Shown here: positions 55,143 through 60,582 of the stretch, in pieces
Numbering within the stretch: the stretch's first letter is position 1
How the letters are laid out: each line of letters opens with the position of its first letter
Assembly (NCBI RefSeq): GCF_008704655.1
Contig: NZ_CP023688.1
Location: 1,736,001 to 1,800,000, forward strand
DNA: 64,000 nucleotides
Direction of reading: 5' to 3'
Source: Streptomyces rimosus
GTDB lineage: Bacteria; Actinomycetota; Actinomycetes; Streptomycetales; Streptomycetaceae
Notes under the pieces: generated by a model
Database searches by the model: none
Told to the model about the DNA's origin: nothing
Seen by the model: the letters and a program-made list of their open reading frames with translations, nothing else
Position numbers and translations under genes: made by a program

Positions 55143-56273
55143 TCAGAAGCCCGCGCCGCCCGCGCGCAGGGCGTGCGAGATGTCGCGATGGCGGTACGGC
55201 GAGACGTCGGCGGCGGCCTCCAGGAGCAGCGGGACCAGCTCGCCCGGCGCGCTCGCTGTCGCCTCGACCGCCTCCTCGGGCGTACGGGCCCGGACGAGCG
55301 CCGCGAACAGTTCGCGGGCCTCGGCCGGGCGGCCCGCGCCGAGCAGCGCCAGCGCCGTGTGCGCCACTTCCCCGACGGGCCGGGCAACGCCCTGGCGCAG
55401 CAGCCGCACGCTCTCCGCGGTGCGGCCGGCGGCGGTCAGCGCGTCGGCGGCAGCGGCGAGCCGGGGCGGTGGCAGACAGGCCACCTCCCAGAGCAGCGTC
55501 GGCACTTCGGCCGCCAGGCCCACGCTTTCCAACTCGTCCATGAGGCGCGGAAGTTCCGAAGGGTGCGCGTGGGCGGCGGCGCACAGCAGGGCGTGCGCCT
55601 CGCCACCGCGCCCGGTGGCACGGAGCCGGGCCAGGCGGGTGGCGTTGGCGGGAGGGGGTGGAGGGGCGGGGGCGACGGGCGTTCCGGAGGTGCGGGGAGC
55701 ACTGCCGGCGTCCGGCTCGCGCTCGTACGGACCGGTGCCGCCGCCCGGGAAGCGGCGGCTCACCGCCGCGCTCGCCAGTGCGTCGAGGCGCCCCTGAAGT
55801 TCGCGCGCCCTGGCACCGGACCGTACGTGATCGTCGCGGGCCCAGGCCAGTTCGTCCGCCAGCCGTGCCGCGCCGGGGCCGCCCGCCGCCGCCAGCAGGG
55901 CGGCCCGTAACTCCCGTTCGCGCAGCGCCGCGTACTGCCGCTCGCGCAGCATCATGTCCAGCCGGTCCCCGAGGCGCGCGGGGGCGCCCGGCCGGGCGTC
56001 GTACGCCGCGACCGCCTCCTCGTGGAGCCGACGTGCCCGCGGCCCGGCGGTGCGCACGGCGTACTCGCCGCGCCAGCCGGCGAGGTCGTGCAGCAGCGAC
56101 TCCACCACGTCCCAGGGCGGCACGTCCGTACCGTCCAGACAGGCCCGCATGCCCTCGGGGTCGCGGAGCGTGAAGACGGCGTACCATCCGGCCGTCTCGT
56201 CGAGCAGCCGCGTCAGCCCGCGCAGGAACCGCGCGAACTCCGCCACCGGCGCTTCGAGTTGGTCCGTTGCCAC
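55143..56273 (-). CDS. Unknown helical, repeat-like protein
   Basis: 376 residues from GTG 56273, behind GGAGAGGGGAAC. I do not recognise the family. The N-terminal 200 residues are charged helices, some probably coiled (DRLDMMLRERQYAALRERELRAALLA, split across two helices). A proline-rich linker APAPPPPPANAT separates a C-terminal part of short helix pairs (LMDELESVGLAAEVPTLLWEV, AAADALTAAGRTAESVRLL, ALALLGAGRPAEARELFAAL) that resembles TPR-like alpha-solenoids. No signal peptide or membrane segment. It is divergent from the FAD-Rieske gene. Confidence 0.7.
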   Translation of the reverse strand: MATDQLEAPVAEFARFLRGLTRLLDETAGWYAVFTLRDPEGMRACLDGTDVPPWDVVESLLHDLAGWRGEYAVRTAGPRARRLHEEAVAAYDARPGAPARLGDRLDMMLRERQYAALRERELRAALLAAAGGPGAARLADELAWARDDHVRSGARARELQGRLDALASAAVSRRFPGGGTGPYEREPDAGSAPRTSGTPVAPAPPPPPANATRLARLRATGRGGEAHALLCAAAHAHPSELPRLMDELESVGLAAEVPTLLWEVACLPPPRLAAAADALTAAGRTAESVRLLRQGVARPVGEVAHTALALLGAGRPAEARELFAALVRARTPEEAVEATASAPGELVPLLLEAAADVSPYRHRDISHALRAGGAGF

Positions 56274-56429
56274 GTTCCCCTCTCCCCTCCCCCACCCCCC
56301 GTGCGCCCGCCCGTTCCCACCCCACGCCCGACCCGCATGCGGCACCAGCCGGGTTTCGGCCTCGATTGCACCGGTCTACGCGCGGTTCGCCGGGGCTCCC
56401 GGGATGGGCGGAGCAGCGGCCATCCGCCG

Positions 56430-56452
56430 TTGTCAGTGGTGGGCCCTAGTCT
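56430..56452 (+). promoter_or_regulatory. Consensus PafBC-type damage promoter before the FAD-Rieske gene
   Basis: TTGTCAGTG (56430-56438), exactly eight bases, then TAGTCT (56447-56452): a full match to the RecA-independent damage promoter TTGTCRGTG-N8-TANNNT bound by PafBC. The -10 ends six bases before ATG 56459, so the transcript would be leaderless. Confidence 0.75.
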
Positions 56453-56458
56453 GCGGAC

Positions 56459-58189
56459 ATGACTGAGACACTTCGGTCACGCCGGGGCGCCCTGCCGGAT
56501 GACGCACGTTCTGACGCCGCGCGGCGACGGGACGGACCTGGAGCCGGTCATCGACCGGTGGAGCCCCGCCCGGCCGCGGGTCCGTCCGGGGGAGCCGGGG
56601 CACGGACGGGCTTCGGGGCGGCCGCGCGGGGCACCCGGTGTCGCATGACCGACAACGATGGAGCGTCCGGCCCCGACGAGTCGTACGAGTCGTATTGGAT
56701 CGCGACGACGCCCGGCACGTCCTATCCGCCGCTCGCCGAGGACGCCGAGGCCGATGTGACGGTGATCGGCGGCGGGATCGCCGGGTTGAGTACCGCCTGG
56801 GAGCTGGTCCGGGCCGGGCGCCGGGTCGTCGTGCTGGAGGCGGACCGGATCGCCGCCGGGGTCACCGGCTGCACGACCGCCAAGCTCTCGTCCCTGCACA
56901 CCCTGATCTACGACCGGCTGCGCCGTACCCGCGGCGCCGAGGGAGCCCGCCGGTACGCCGAGTCCCAGCAGGCCGCCGTCGAGCGCGTCGTCGAGATCGC
57001 GGATCTGCTGGGCGTCGACTGCGACCTCGAACGCGGCCCGGCGTTCACCTACGTACGGGACCCGGCGGGTGCCGGGCAGCTGCGCGCGGAGGCGGAGGCG
57101 GCGCGCGAGGCCGGGCTGCCGGCTTCCTTCGTGACCGCAACCGGGCTGCCGTTCCCCGTGGCCGGCGCGGTGCGGGTGGAGGAGCAGGCCCAGTTCCACC
57201 CGCGCAGGTATCTGCTCGCGCTGGCGGAGGATTTCCGCTCCCGCGGCGGCGTCATCCACGAGCGCACCCGCGCGACCGGCCTGCACGAGGGCTCGCCCTG
57301 CCGCGTGACGACCGAGTCGGGCGCCACCGTCACCTCGCGGGACGTCGTGGTCGCCACCCACTACCCGGTCTTCGACCGCGCCCTGCTGTTCACCCGGCTG
57401 TCGCCGCGCCGGGAGGTCGTGGTGGCCGCCCCCGTGGACGCGGGCCGTGACCCTGGCGGGATGTACATCACGGAGGAGGAGGGCAAGCGGTCGGTGCGCA
57501 CCGCCCCGTACGACGACGGGCGCCGGCTGCTGATCGTCACGGGCGAGACGTTCAAGCCGGGCACGGCGGACGCCGGCGAGAAGTTCGCGCGGCTGACCGC
57601 CTGGATGCACCGGCACTTCCCCGGTACGGAGGTGGCGTACCGCTGGGCGACCCAGGACAACGACTCCACCGACACCGTTCCGCTGATCGGGCCGTTCCAC
57701 CCGGCCGCCCGCCACACCTATGTCGCCACCGGGTTCGGCGGCTGGGGCCTGAGCGGCGGCGTGGCCGCCGGGCGCCTGCTGACCGGCCTGATCACCGGGG
57801 ACCCGCCGCCGTGGGCGGGCCTGTACGACCCCCGCCGGCTGTGGAGCGCCGTCCGCGAGGCGCCCGCCTTCCTCAAGCACCAGGCCGAGGTCGGGCGGCA
57901 CTTCATCGGCGACCGGCTGCGGACGACGCACGCCGACTCGGTGGCGGAGATCGCGCCCGGCTCCGGCGCGATCGTCCGGGTGCGCGGCAGGCGCTGCGCG
58001 GTCCACCGGGACGAGGACGGGACCACCCTGGCGGTGTCGGCGCGCTGCACCCACCTGGGCTGTCTGGTCGCGTTCAACGCGACCGAGAAGGCGTGGGAGT
58101 GCCCGTGCCACGGCTCCCGCTTCGCACCGGACGGCTCGGTGCTCCAGGGCCCGGCCACGGAGCCGCTGGAGCGGCGGGAGGTGGAGTAG
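56459..58189 (+). CDS. FAD-dependent oxidoreductase with C-terminal Rieske [2Fe-2S] domain
   Basis: 576 residues if the leaderless ATG at 56459 is used; ATG 56645 removes a 62-residue low-complexity leader and starts closer to the fold. The FAD domain shows DVTVIGGGIAGLSTAWELVRAG, the DAO-type middle region and GFGGWGLSGGVAAGRLL. The last 50 residues hold a Rieske cluster: CTHLGC and CPCHGSRF, giving two cysteines and two histidines. This YhfW-like architecture is widespread but has no proven reaction. The consensus PafBC motif directly in front implies induction by DNA or replication stress. Confidence 0.88.
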   Translation: MTETLRSRRGALPDDARSDAARRRDGPGAGHRPVEPRPAAGPSGGAGARTGFGAAARGTRCRMTDNDGASGPDESYESYWIATTPGTSYPPLAEDAEADVTVIGGGIAGLSTAWELVRAGRRVVVLEADRIAAGVTGCTTAKLSSLHTLIYDRLRRTRGAEGARRYAESQQAAVERVVEIADLLGVDCDLERGPAFTYVRDPAGAGQLRAEAEAAREAGLPASFVTATGLPFPVAGAVRVEEQAQFHPRRYLLALAEDFRSRGGVIHERTRATGLHEGSPCRVTTESGATVTSRDVVVATHYPVFDRALLFTRLSPRREVVVAAPVDAGRDPGGMYITEEEGKRSVRTAPYDDGRRLLIVTGETFKPGTADAGEKFARLTAWMHRHFPGTEVAYRWATQDNDSTDTVPLIGPFHPAARHTYVATGFGGWGLSGGVAAGRLLTGLITGDPPPWAGLYDPRRLWSAVREAPAFLKHQAEVGRHFIGDRLRTTHADSVAEIAPGSGAIVRVRGRRCAVHRDEDGTTLAVSARCTHLGCLVAFNATEKAWECPCHGSRFAPDGSVLQGPATEPLERREVE

Positions 58190-58484
58190 CGGGTCCGGGC
58201 CGGGCCACCCGGCGGGTGGGGGCGGTCCGGGTGCGGCGGTCCCGGTGCGGGAGATCCCGGTGCCGGAGGCCCCCGTGCGGTGATCCCCGTGCCGGAGGTC
58301 CTGGTGCGGTGATCCCCGTGCGGGCGGTCCCGGTGCGGGTGATCCGGTGTGAGTGGTCCAGACCGTTGGTGATTACATTGGCTTCTTGCGGAACCGGGCG
58401 ACCGTTCCCGTGGGGTTCACCGCCGGGTCCGTACGCCGTGCCATCCGGCGGCAGCGGCGCCGCCCGAGAGAATGGACCTCTTCC
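58190..58484. other. 295-bp region before the metallo-beta-lactamase-fold gene
   Basis: Holds the tandem repeats and, at about 58374-58379, a TACATT -10-like element that argues against starts upstream of it. No gene recognised, although the downstream frame is formally open from GTG 58353. Confidence 0.45.
58231..58345. repeat. Eight degenerate 14-15 bp tandem repeats
   Basis: Units close to GTGCGG-T/GA-TCCCCG follow each other from the FAD-Rieske 3' side toward the next gene, with copies at roughly 58231, 58245, 58260, 58275, 58289, 58304, 58318 and 58333. Each has GTGC(C/G)GG followed by GATCCC or GGTCCC. Too short for CRISPR; either slippage or an array of binding sites. Confidence 0.6.
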
Positions 58485-59420
58485 TTGACCACGCCCCGCC
58501 TCGTCCCGCTCTCCCCGACCACCTGGGCGTGGACGCACGACAGCACCGCCTGGGGTTACAGCAACTGCGGCCTGGTCGCGTCCGACGGCGAAGCGCTCCT
58601 GATGGACACCCAGTTCACCCTGGAGGGCACCCGGGAACTGCTGGCCGCGATCGCCGGCGCCGTACCGGACGCGACGATCACCACCGTGGTCAACAGCCAC
58701 CAGAACGGCGACCACACCTGGGGCAACGAACTGGTCGGGGACGCGGAGATCATCACGTCCGAGGCGTCCGCCGCGCACCGGTGCCATGAGATGACGCCGG
58801 ACATGCTGTCGGCCCTGAGCCGCGGCGAGCCGGCCACCGCGGTCGCGGCCTACGCCGTCGAGCACTTCGGCGGTTTCGACTTCGGCGGCATCACCCTCAC
58901 CGGGCCGACCCGGACCTTCACCGGCAGCCTGGAGCTGACCGTCGGCCGTACGGCGGTGCGCCTGCTGGATCTCGGCGCCGGGCACAGCGCGGGCGATGTC
59001 GCGCTGCACGTGCCCGAGGACGGCGTGGTGTTCACCGGCGACGCCCTGTTCCGCGGCGGCCACATGATCGTCTGGTCGGGCTCGCTCTCCTCGTGCGTCA
59101 CGGCCTGCGACACCCTGCTGGCCACCGGCGCCACGACCTTCGTACCGGGCCACGGGGAGCTGACGGACCGGGCGGGGCTGACGCACTTCCGCGACGAGCT
59201 GTCCCGGATCTTCGAGACGGCCACCGCGTACGCCCGCGAGGGCCGGGAGCTGGACGAGGCGGCCCGCCTGGTCAAGGCCGCGCACGCCGGCGACCTGGCG
59301 CACCCGGAGCGGCTGTTCACCGCGGTCGCGGGGGCCTACCAGGAGGCGGGCGTGCCGGACGTACCGTCCACCACGTTCGAGCTGGTCGAGGGCATGGCCC
59401 GGCTGGCGGCCGCCGCGTAG
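58485..59420 (+). CDS. Metallo-beta-lactamase-fold hydrolase
   Basis: About 311 residues. The start is uncertain: TTG 58485 begins right at the domain (TTPRLVPLSPTTWAW), GTG 58410 adds 25 residues, and GTG 58353 would lie upstream of a likely -10. The metal site is the variant NSHQNGDHTWGN (His, Asp, His), followed by GAGHSAGDVALHV, VVFTGDALF and VPGHGELTD. The fold binds two metal ions; the substrate is unknown. Its last 85 bases overlap the convergent XRE gene. Confidence 0.85.
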   Translation: MTTPRLVPLSPTTWAWTHDSTAWGYSNCGLVASDGEALLMDTQFTLEGTRELLAAIAGAVPDATITTVVNSHQNGDHTWGNELVGDAEIITSEASAAHRCHEMTPDMLSALSRGEPATAVAAYAVEHFGGFDFGGITLTGPTRTFTGSLELTVGRTAVRLLDLGAGHSAGDVALHVPEDGVVFTGDALFRGGHMIVWSGSLSSCVTACDTLLATGATTFVPGHGELTDRAGLTHFRDELSRIFETATAYAREGRELDEAARLVKAAHAGDLAHPERLFTAVAGAYQEAGVPDVPSTTFELVEGMARLAAAA

Positions 59421-60235
59421 CCGGACGCGGCGGGCTCCGTGGCCACCGGGTAGTCGGACGGCACCACCAGCATGAGCCGCTGCGTACGGTCGCTGAGCGG
59501 CGCGAAGCAGCGGAAGGTGACCTCGAACTCCTCGTCGCCGTGGCCGGGCAGGTACAGCCAGCGCCGGTCGCCGTCCGGGTGGGTGACCGTCGTCAGATCG
59601 TCGGTGAGCAGCCGGGCGGCGACCCGGTCGCGCTCCTTGATCTCCGCGACGACCTCCGTCAGCCGGCGGTTCTCCGGCTGTTCGGCGGCGGCCAGGCGCA
59701 GCTGGGACGCCATCGGCTTGGCCCAGTCCTCCTCCCAGTTGATCAGCTGGAGGCGGGCCTCCGGGTACGTCAGCGCCCAGATCATGACGTTGATGCCGTG
59801 CTTCATCCACGGCCAGTCCTTCTCGCAGGCCGCGTTGTACAGGAGCACGTCCCACGCCGAGTCGGACAGGTACGCGGGCCAGGGCTGGACCTGGATGAGC
59901 GCGGACGTCGACGGGTCGACCGCGCCGGTGGGGCGGTAGAGCGGCGGCGGCACCTGGCCCCGCGCGTACACGAAGAGGGTGTGCCGCTGCGCCTCGTCGA
60001 GGTCGAGGATGCGCACGATGCGCTCCAGCCACTCGGTCTTCGGCCGCTCGATCCGGCCGGACTCCAGCCTGCGGTACCAGCCCTCGGTGACGCCGGTGAG
60101 CACCGCCATCTCGGCCTGCGTGATACCGAGCCGGTCCCGGTGGCCGAATTTCGCGGTGAAACCCGGCACCTGGTTGGGGTCCCGCGGGGCGCGCCAGTCG
60201 CGCAGGAAGTCGCCGAGGCGCTGCTTACGGGACAT
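59336..60235 (-). CDS. XRE-family regulator with MmyB-like ligand domain (second)
   Basis: 299 residues from ATG 60235 (a TTG three codons earlier is possible). N-terminal helix-turn-helix: GITQAEMAVLTGVTEGWYRRLESGRIERP. The ligand domain follows: WPAYLSDSAWDVLLYNAACEKDWP, INVMIWALTYPEARLQL and FRCFAPLSDRTQRLMLVVPSDYP. The last 30 residues lie antisense to the end of the metallo-hydrolase gene. The divergent gene across 347 bp is fabG-like; either neighbour could be the target. Confidence 0.88.
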   Translation of the reverse strand: MSRKQRLGDFLRDWRAPRDPNQVPGFTAKFGHRDRLGITQAEMAVLTGVTEGWYRRLESGRIERPKTEWLERIVRILDLDEAQRHTLFVYARGQVPPPLYRPTGAVDPSTSALIQVQPWPAYLSDSAWDVLLYNAACEKDWPWMKHGINVMIWALTYPEARLQLINWEEDWAKPMASQLRLAAAEQPENRRLTEVVAEIKERDRVAARLLTDDLTTVTHPDGDRRWLYLPGHGDEEFEVTFRCFAPLSDRTQRLMLVVPSDYPVATEPAASGYAAAASRAMPSTSSNVVDGTSGTPASW

Positions 60236-60582
60236 TCGGCACAAAGCCCCCTTCGGTTCGGTAAAAGGATCGAAAAGTTACGGCCGACTTTATCGCCACT
60301 CCACTACGGACCGAACGAGCCCCCGGGCCCACCGCGGACCACCCGCCACCCCACGAATCACCCGAAAGCCCACATCCTCCGCATTTTCCGGGCCGGAGCG
60401 GCACCCCGCCTACCGGAACTCCCAGTACCGGTCACCGTGTGTGACCCCCGGCGAACGAGAACGCCGGATCGGTTTGTGCCAGAGTGACTGACCGCGGCAG
60501 GGCCCGCACGGCGCCCCCGCCGACGCCCCGCCGCCGTGCCACCGGCCGAGCCGGGCACACCCGCAGCAATCGAGAGGGACCC
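60236..60582. other. 347-bp divergent intergenic region before the fabG-like gene
   Basis: The left part is unusually AT-rich for this genome (AAAAGGATCGAAAAGTTACGG), probably the XRE promoter. A perfect inverted repeat, GGTCAC-N5-GTGACC (60430-60446), lies 137 bp before the fabG-like start and is a candidate operator. GAGAGGGA serves as ribosome site. No gene recognised. Confidence 0.5.

Follow-up and report, generated by a model that had tools for sequence, protein, structure and literature searches.

We have analyzed a locus in a 64,000-nucleotide stretch of the Streptomyces rimosus genome, hereafter the window, whose features are collected in Table 1. The locus holds a gene for an FAD-dependent oxidoreductase in which the DAO domain (PF01266) and the Rieske domain (PF00355) both score above the gathering cut-off, in agreement with the original prediction of a DAO-type FAD protein carrying a Rieske domain. 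Upstream of it, at 56430-56452 on the + strand, the sequence TTGTCAGTG-GTGGGCCC-TAGTCT matches the RecA-NDp/PafBC damage promoter pattern exactly, with 0 mismatches. Six bases (56453-56458) separate the -10 element from an ATG at 56459 that shares the frame of the FAD gene, and the reading frame from this ATG is open through to 58189. No sigma-70-type sites were found between 56290 and 56700, and no terminator-like site lies between the RecA-NDp promoter and the FAD gene. Further downstream, the ORF for an XRE/MmyB-type regulator (59336-60244, - strand) and that for a metallo-beta-lactamase-fold protein (58353-59420, + strand) share 85 bp at their 3' ends.

Table 1. Features of the FAD-Rieske locus in the window, and members of the 192-aa family found at other loci
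Feature	Position	Strand	Remarks
Divergent gene, VATDQLE..	55143..56273	-	synteny anchor; 0 Pfam families
PafBC/RecA-NDp upstream element TTGTCAGTG	56430..56438	+	exact match; 39 genome-wide sites vs 0 for the control
-10 element TAGTCT (TAnnnT), after 8-nt spacer	56447..56452	+	TACTCT in G072; lost in G036, S. monomycini and G361
Start stub of deleted SRPBCC gene (MTETLR..)	56459..56477	+	90% DNA match to G072; leaderless position
C-terminal SRPBCC stub, another frame (MTHVLTPRGDGTDLEPVIDRWS)	56478..56564	+	92% DNA match to G072
49-aa residual ORF holding the C-terminal stub	56499..56648	+	TGA overlaps the FAD start (ATGA); no Pfam match
5' flank travelling with the FAD gene	56563..56644	+	common to G036 and S. 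monomycini, unmatched in G072 (alignment/blastn)
FAD-dependent DAO + Rieske oxidoreductase, 514 aa	56645..58189	+	likely start ATG 56645; Pfam PF01266, PF00355
DAO domain	56753..57784	+	PF01266, E 7.8e-50
Rieske [2Fe-2S] domain (CTHLGC ... CPCHGS)	57938..58171	+	PF00355, E 4.3e-14
Metallo-beta-lactamase fold protein	58353..59420	+	PF00753; directly after the SRPBCC gene in G072
192-aa family members	L047:789-1364, L079:2298-2879, L153-L182

The consensus applied here, TTGTCRGTG-N8-TAnnnT, is said to go back to Gamulin 2004. The form TTGTCAGTGGCN6TAGggT, as quoted in PMC2375139, is consistent with it. With up to 3 mismatches allowed, 56430-56452 is the sole match in the window. In the 9.36-Mb genome the strict pattern (TTGTCRGTG-N8-TANNNT) occurs at 39 sites, vs 0 for the reversed control, and these counts together with the register place the window site far beyond chance. 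A merely fortuitous match deserves next to no credence: loose matches (≤3 mismatches) average 0.23 per window in shuffled sequences and lend it little support, and against it stand the 0 mismatches, the genome-wide counts of 39 vs 0, the leaderless register and the retention of the motif in a related genome, G072. On this evidence the motif is a genuine PafBC-type (RecA-NDp) promoter, and the full-consensus site of the original prediction is confirmed.

Among the 39 sites of the genome, 21 have the start codon of an ORF of at least 100 aa 5-9 nt downstream, by a mechanical count that includes the window site; at 17 sites no ORF of at least 100 aa begins within 15 nt. Sites located 6-8 nt before starts belong to uvrB, dnaX, and the genes for a UvrD-type helicase, MGMT, MazG, an AlkZ-like glycosylase and an MgsA-type ATPase. 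The recA site lies 1 or 7 nt ahead of two possible starts, and those of dnaE, ruvC and the uracil-DNA glycosylase gene are found 37-68 nt before theirs. It is understood in the field that PafBC, when bound to ssDNA, enables the housekeeping RNA polymerase to act at promoters bearing a RecA-NDp element. The genome encodes PafB and PafC beside pafA: in one locus (L148) a PafA-matching ORF is followed by a WYL/WCX protein, which we take to be PafB, and then by a protein with the HTH_PafC domain (PF19187). The PafA ORF, of 286 aa, matches PafA positions 168-457 and scores 448.6 bits against TIGR03686, below the cut-off of 551.3, probably because the gene is cut by the edge of the locus.

The strict pattern is present in 199 of 199 genomes of the genus, with 5 to 44 sites each and 0-2 per genome in the reversed controls. 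The Streptomyces element has already been described, in PMC2375139, PMC5087735 and PMC9411070. An initial search mentioned in PMC9380542 pointed to a lack of conservation of the M. smegmatis motif in S. venezuelae. Our genus sample, in which S. venezuelae was not singled out, clearly carries the motif, at odds in spirit with that remark.

Two other groups of sites may be recorded here. Identical RecA-NDp sites lie within ~3.4 kb of both contig ends (G000:C1:3318-3340, +, and 9357815-9357837, -; loci L001 and L147), each 6 nt before the same 182-aa ORF, which has a hydrophobic middle by eye and no Pfam match; the terminal repeats thus probably carry a damage-promoter gene. A flavin amine-oxidase-type protein (PF01593; L025:3-1493, -) has a full site 7 nt ahead of its start. 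In G072, G361 and G215, too, there are 23-mers with this -10 (TAAAGT), the comparison covering the 23-mers themselves. As an FAD enzyme under damage control, this protein seems more plausible than that of the window gene.

A DNA search with 56290-56760 against 392 genus genomes (E up to 1e-3) matched 177 of them, nearly all of the matches listed being short. The strong matches were to G036 (79% over the stretch), G361 (76%, window 56290-56477) and G072. The last falls into two pieces, window 56297-56477 at 90% and 56478-56564 at 92%, separated in G072 by 245 bp of a gene that are missing from the window. There the promoter, TTGTCAGTG-GTGGGCCC-TACTCT, is followed after 6 nt by the ATG of an intact 148-aa SRPBCC/AHSA1-type gene, whose product begins MAETLR and scores above the cut-off for PF08327 (AHSA1; 32.1 vs 22.1 bits) and PF10604 (Polyketide_cyc2). 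In G072 a nitrilase-like ORF (named by eye) is followed in turn by the VATDQLE gene, the site with the SRPBCC gene, the metallo-beta-lactamase fold protein and the XRE-type regulator; the window has the same order, but with a scar and the FAD-Rieske gene in place of the SRPBCC gene. DNA of the VATDQLE gene is matched in G072, G036 and S. monomycini, and in parts in G361, and matching ORFs support the synteny. No full-length FAD-Rieske match was found anywhere in G072 or G361; for G072, an assembly of 290 contigs in which the locus itself is continuous, the absence could in principle be an assembly gap.

The scar consists of the start codon and about six residues, a frame jump to MTHVLTPRGDGTDLEPVIDRWS, and the 5' flank of the FAD gene. 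By tblastn the MTHVLTPRGDGTDLEPVIDRWS stub is 79% like residues 89-121 of the G072 SRPBCC protein, a match of only 33 residues, and Pfam finds 0 families in the two stub frames. Codon-position GC is 0.73/0.56/0.96 in the FAD gene from 56645, vs 0.84/0.81/0.69 in the 62-codon extension before it. ATG 56645 and its surroundings are conserved in G036 and S. monomycini, and the extension is not; no clear ribosome-binding site was seen by eye before this ATG. The FAD gene most likely begins at ATG 56645, not ATG 56459, and the preceding 62 codons are, judging from their sequence, a scar without gene-like composition whose frame is open by accident. The original prediction had placed the motif six bases before an in-frame ATG, and in position this is correct; as a start of the FAD gene that ATG does not hold, its frame crossing the scar.

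Orthologues of the SRPBCC gene are rare. In 392 genus genomes (E up to 1e-8) there is 1 intact copy, in G072, besides the window stub. The family sample yields 2 of 394, the same 2 being found among 70 genomes of genus g27, which, going by database names, is probably Kitasatospora. A protein database search for relatives returned 4, then 58 proteins, including S. rimosus SRPBCC proteins (P0001). The elements before the g27 orthologues are CTGTCGGAA-N8-TACGCT-6 nt-ATG and CTGTCGGTA-N8-TACGAT-7 nt-ATG, and the motif is in register upstream of the SRPBCC gene in 3 of the 3 loci with upstream DNA: exact in G072, with 2 mismatches in G489 and 3 in G564. The chance of an element as good as those of g27 is ~1-2 in 10,000 each, under independent bases and allowing up to 3 mismatches, TAnnnT and four registers. 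The SRPBCC gene is best filed as a putative new and rare member of the known PafBC regulon. A literature search that lacked most subscription journals found no paper on SRPBCC, mitomycin and Streptomyces.

Three relatives have lost the -10 element, and all that each retains of the SRPBCC gene is its first codons. Their sites read TTGCCGGTG-GCGGGCCC-CGGGCC in G036, TTGTCGGTG-GTGGGACC-GGTCCG in S. monomycini and TTGCCGGTG-GTCGGGCC-CGCTCC in G361; the FAD-Rieske gene is present at the locus in the first two and absent in G361. The regulon as such persists in the relatives, with 33 strict sites in G036, 39 in G072 and 36 in G361, and 21 of the 39 sites of the window genome have a near-identical counterpart in G036 (≤1 difference at 12 free positions). 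Since G036 has kept these sites and lost the -10 together with the SRPBCC gene, the loss is local, tracking the SRPBCC gene rather than the FAD gene. A search of 100 relatives of G072 for further scar-bearing genomes recovered only G036 and G072.

The original prediction named a lack of motif conservation in orthologues as grounds for refutation, and a survey of FAD-Rieske loci shows just this lack: none of the 60 other loci, including those of the two relatives that share the locus, has a site at the window's position. Sites with spacer 8, TAnnnT and ≤2 mismatches in the 9-base element occur at 3 of 61 loci, namely the window, L047 and L079. This count leaves out L092-L095 (cyanobacterial and clostridial), which were scanned separately. 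The upstream DNA extended to at most ~1.5 kb for L031-L060 and up to 3 kb for L061-L091, and there may be genomes common to the two sets. Remote and partial homologues are among the loci, with identity falling to ~46% in L031-L060. In L047 and L079 the site is ~740 bp upstream of the FAD-Rieske gene. It precedes, in leaderless register, a gene of 192-194 aa located on the same strand immediately ahead of the FAD-Rieske gene. This 192-aa family (MGVYLVS..) has no Pfam match and was found in 67 of 372 genus genomes. A leaderless RecA-NDp site with ≤2 mismatches stands in register before the gene in 31 of 31 loci from 30 genomes, the sample being the best 30 loci of the 67 genomes plus L079 (L159 and L079 are one genome). 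We regard the family as a strong candidate for an unknown member of the Streptomyces damage regulon. The FAD-Rieske gene is next behind it, co-directional, in 4 of the 30 genomes (G013, G134, G250 and G363, the last being the genome of L079), and all four cases are in one syntenic neighbourhood.

The FAD-Rieske gene might be a true part of the PafBC regulon throughout Streptomyces, a reading implied by the original prediction and favoured by the full-consensus window site and the four genomes with the 192-aa gene. With any site in only 3 of 61 loci, and with those of L047 and L079 directly preceding another gene, this is highly improbable. When the window is set aside, having been found via its site, one independent locus type is left, so no enrichment is claimed; the 192-aa and FAD-Rieske pair is one further locus type and no general rule, but the FAD gene may be induced as a passenger. 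A broader proposal would have FAD-Rieske genes landing repeatedly behind PafBC-driven first genes (SRPBCC here, the 192-aa gene in four genomes) as damage-inducible passengers, some lineages retaining a useful post-damage redox enzyme; we think this rather unlikely. A literature search on Rieske, FAD-dependent oxidoreductase, Streptomyces and DNA damage, which lacked most subscription journals, found no paper.

A general-stress promoter was also considered for the FAD-Rieske loci. The sigma-B-like consensus is G.TT-N13-17-GGGTA. Such sites occur upstream of the gene at 4 of 61 loci, compared with 0.34 on average, and never more than 3, in 100 mononucleotide shuffles. This is a slight excess, but 57 of the 61 loci are without a site, so the candidate was rejected and no common promoter is named.

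The window site is very probably the relic PafBC promoter of a recently deleted SRPBCC gene, the FAD-Rieske gene lying behind the scar with the stub frame running into it by chance. In favour of this are the promoter and intact SRPBCC gene at the same syntenic place in G072 and the survival of both stubs as 90-92% identical DNA in the window. Motif, regulon, stubs, synteny and non-conservation are observed, and the order of events may be pictured as follows. The promoter would have evolved with, and served, a small gene of the SRPBCC/AHSA1 fold with a leaderless start at ATG 56459, and damage would have induced a leaderless SRPBCC mRNA in the ancestor. The gene would then have lost its middle and tail in the window strain, where the FAD-Rieske gene with ~80 bp of its own 5' flank would have come to lie behind the scar. 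A start at 56459 would now yield a stub message running into the FAD gene, and the promoter, if it still fires upon damage, would transcribe that gene by accident. Against the relic interpretation, G072 alone shows the intact gene combined with a full-consensus site at the locus; the 9-base element departs from the consensus at 3 positions in one g27 orthologue and at 2 in the other; and the position of the FAD-Rieske gene behind another RecA-NDp gene, seen in 4 of 30 genomes, could reflect a genuine regulatory connection.

As no terminator-like site intervenes before the FAD gene, damage control in the window strain is conceivable. The promoter may have been captured, the FAD-Rieske gene being usefully damage-induced, with a 576-aa product made from the leaderless in-frame start at 56459 or else by transcripts reading through to ATG 56645. 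The intact motif, the 6-nt leaderless register, the open frame into the FAD gene, the absence of a terminator-like site and the second locus type with a FAD-Rieske gene behind a RecA-NDp gene would all fit such a capture. However, the -10 is lost in both relatives that share the locus and the FAD gene, the extension is without coding composition, and recency explains the intact motif, given stubs that have kept 90-92% identity to G072. We therefore consider capture improbable.

On the relic interpretation the promoter, which the original prediction had assigned to the FAD gene itself, is that of the gene intact in G072 and deleted here, and the proposed damage control ceases to be a functional clue. 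A promoter most likely derived from a mostly deleted small gene tells little about the role of the oxidoreductase, and a false clue is avoided for an uncharacterised enzyme family. The case illustrates how a deleted gene can leave behind a motif that then stands beside an in-frame ATG. Better targets behind damage promoters would be the rare SRPBCC protein and the 192-aa family without a Pfam match.

The window protein shares with other DAO and Rieske oxidoreductases the order of its domains, DAO followed by a C-terminal Rieske domain. None of the solved structures listed matches it at full length, the 56 matched sequences covering the Rieske part or the FAD-binding motif only. The intact G072 protein resembles the small SRPBCC/AHSA1-like proteins (PF08327) in matching PF08327 as well as PF10604, and represents a narrow subfamily, of which the 392 genus genomes sampled yielded one intact member and the window a pseudogene. 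The RecA-NDp element is known in Streptomyces from recA and SCO6735, according to PMC2375139 and PMC5087735. The promoters of S. rimosus recA, of SCO6735 and of the mycobacterial regulon have the same element, spacing and -10 as the window site. Unlike these known RecA-NDp/PafBC promoters, that of the window has had its cognate gene deleted and now has another gene behind it.
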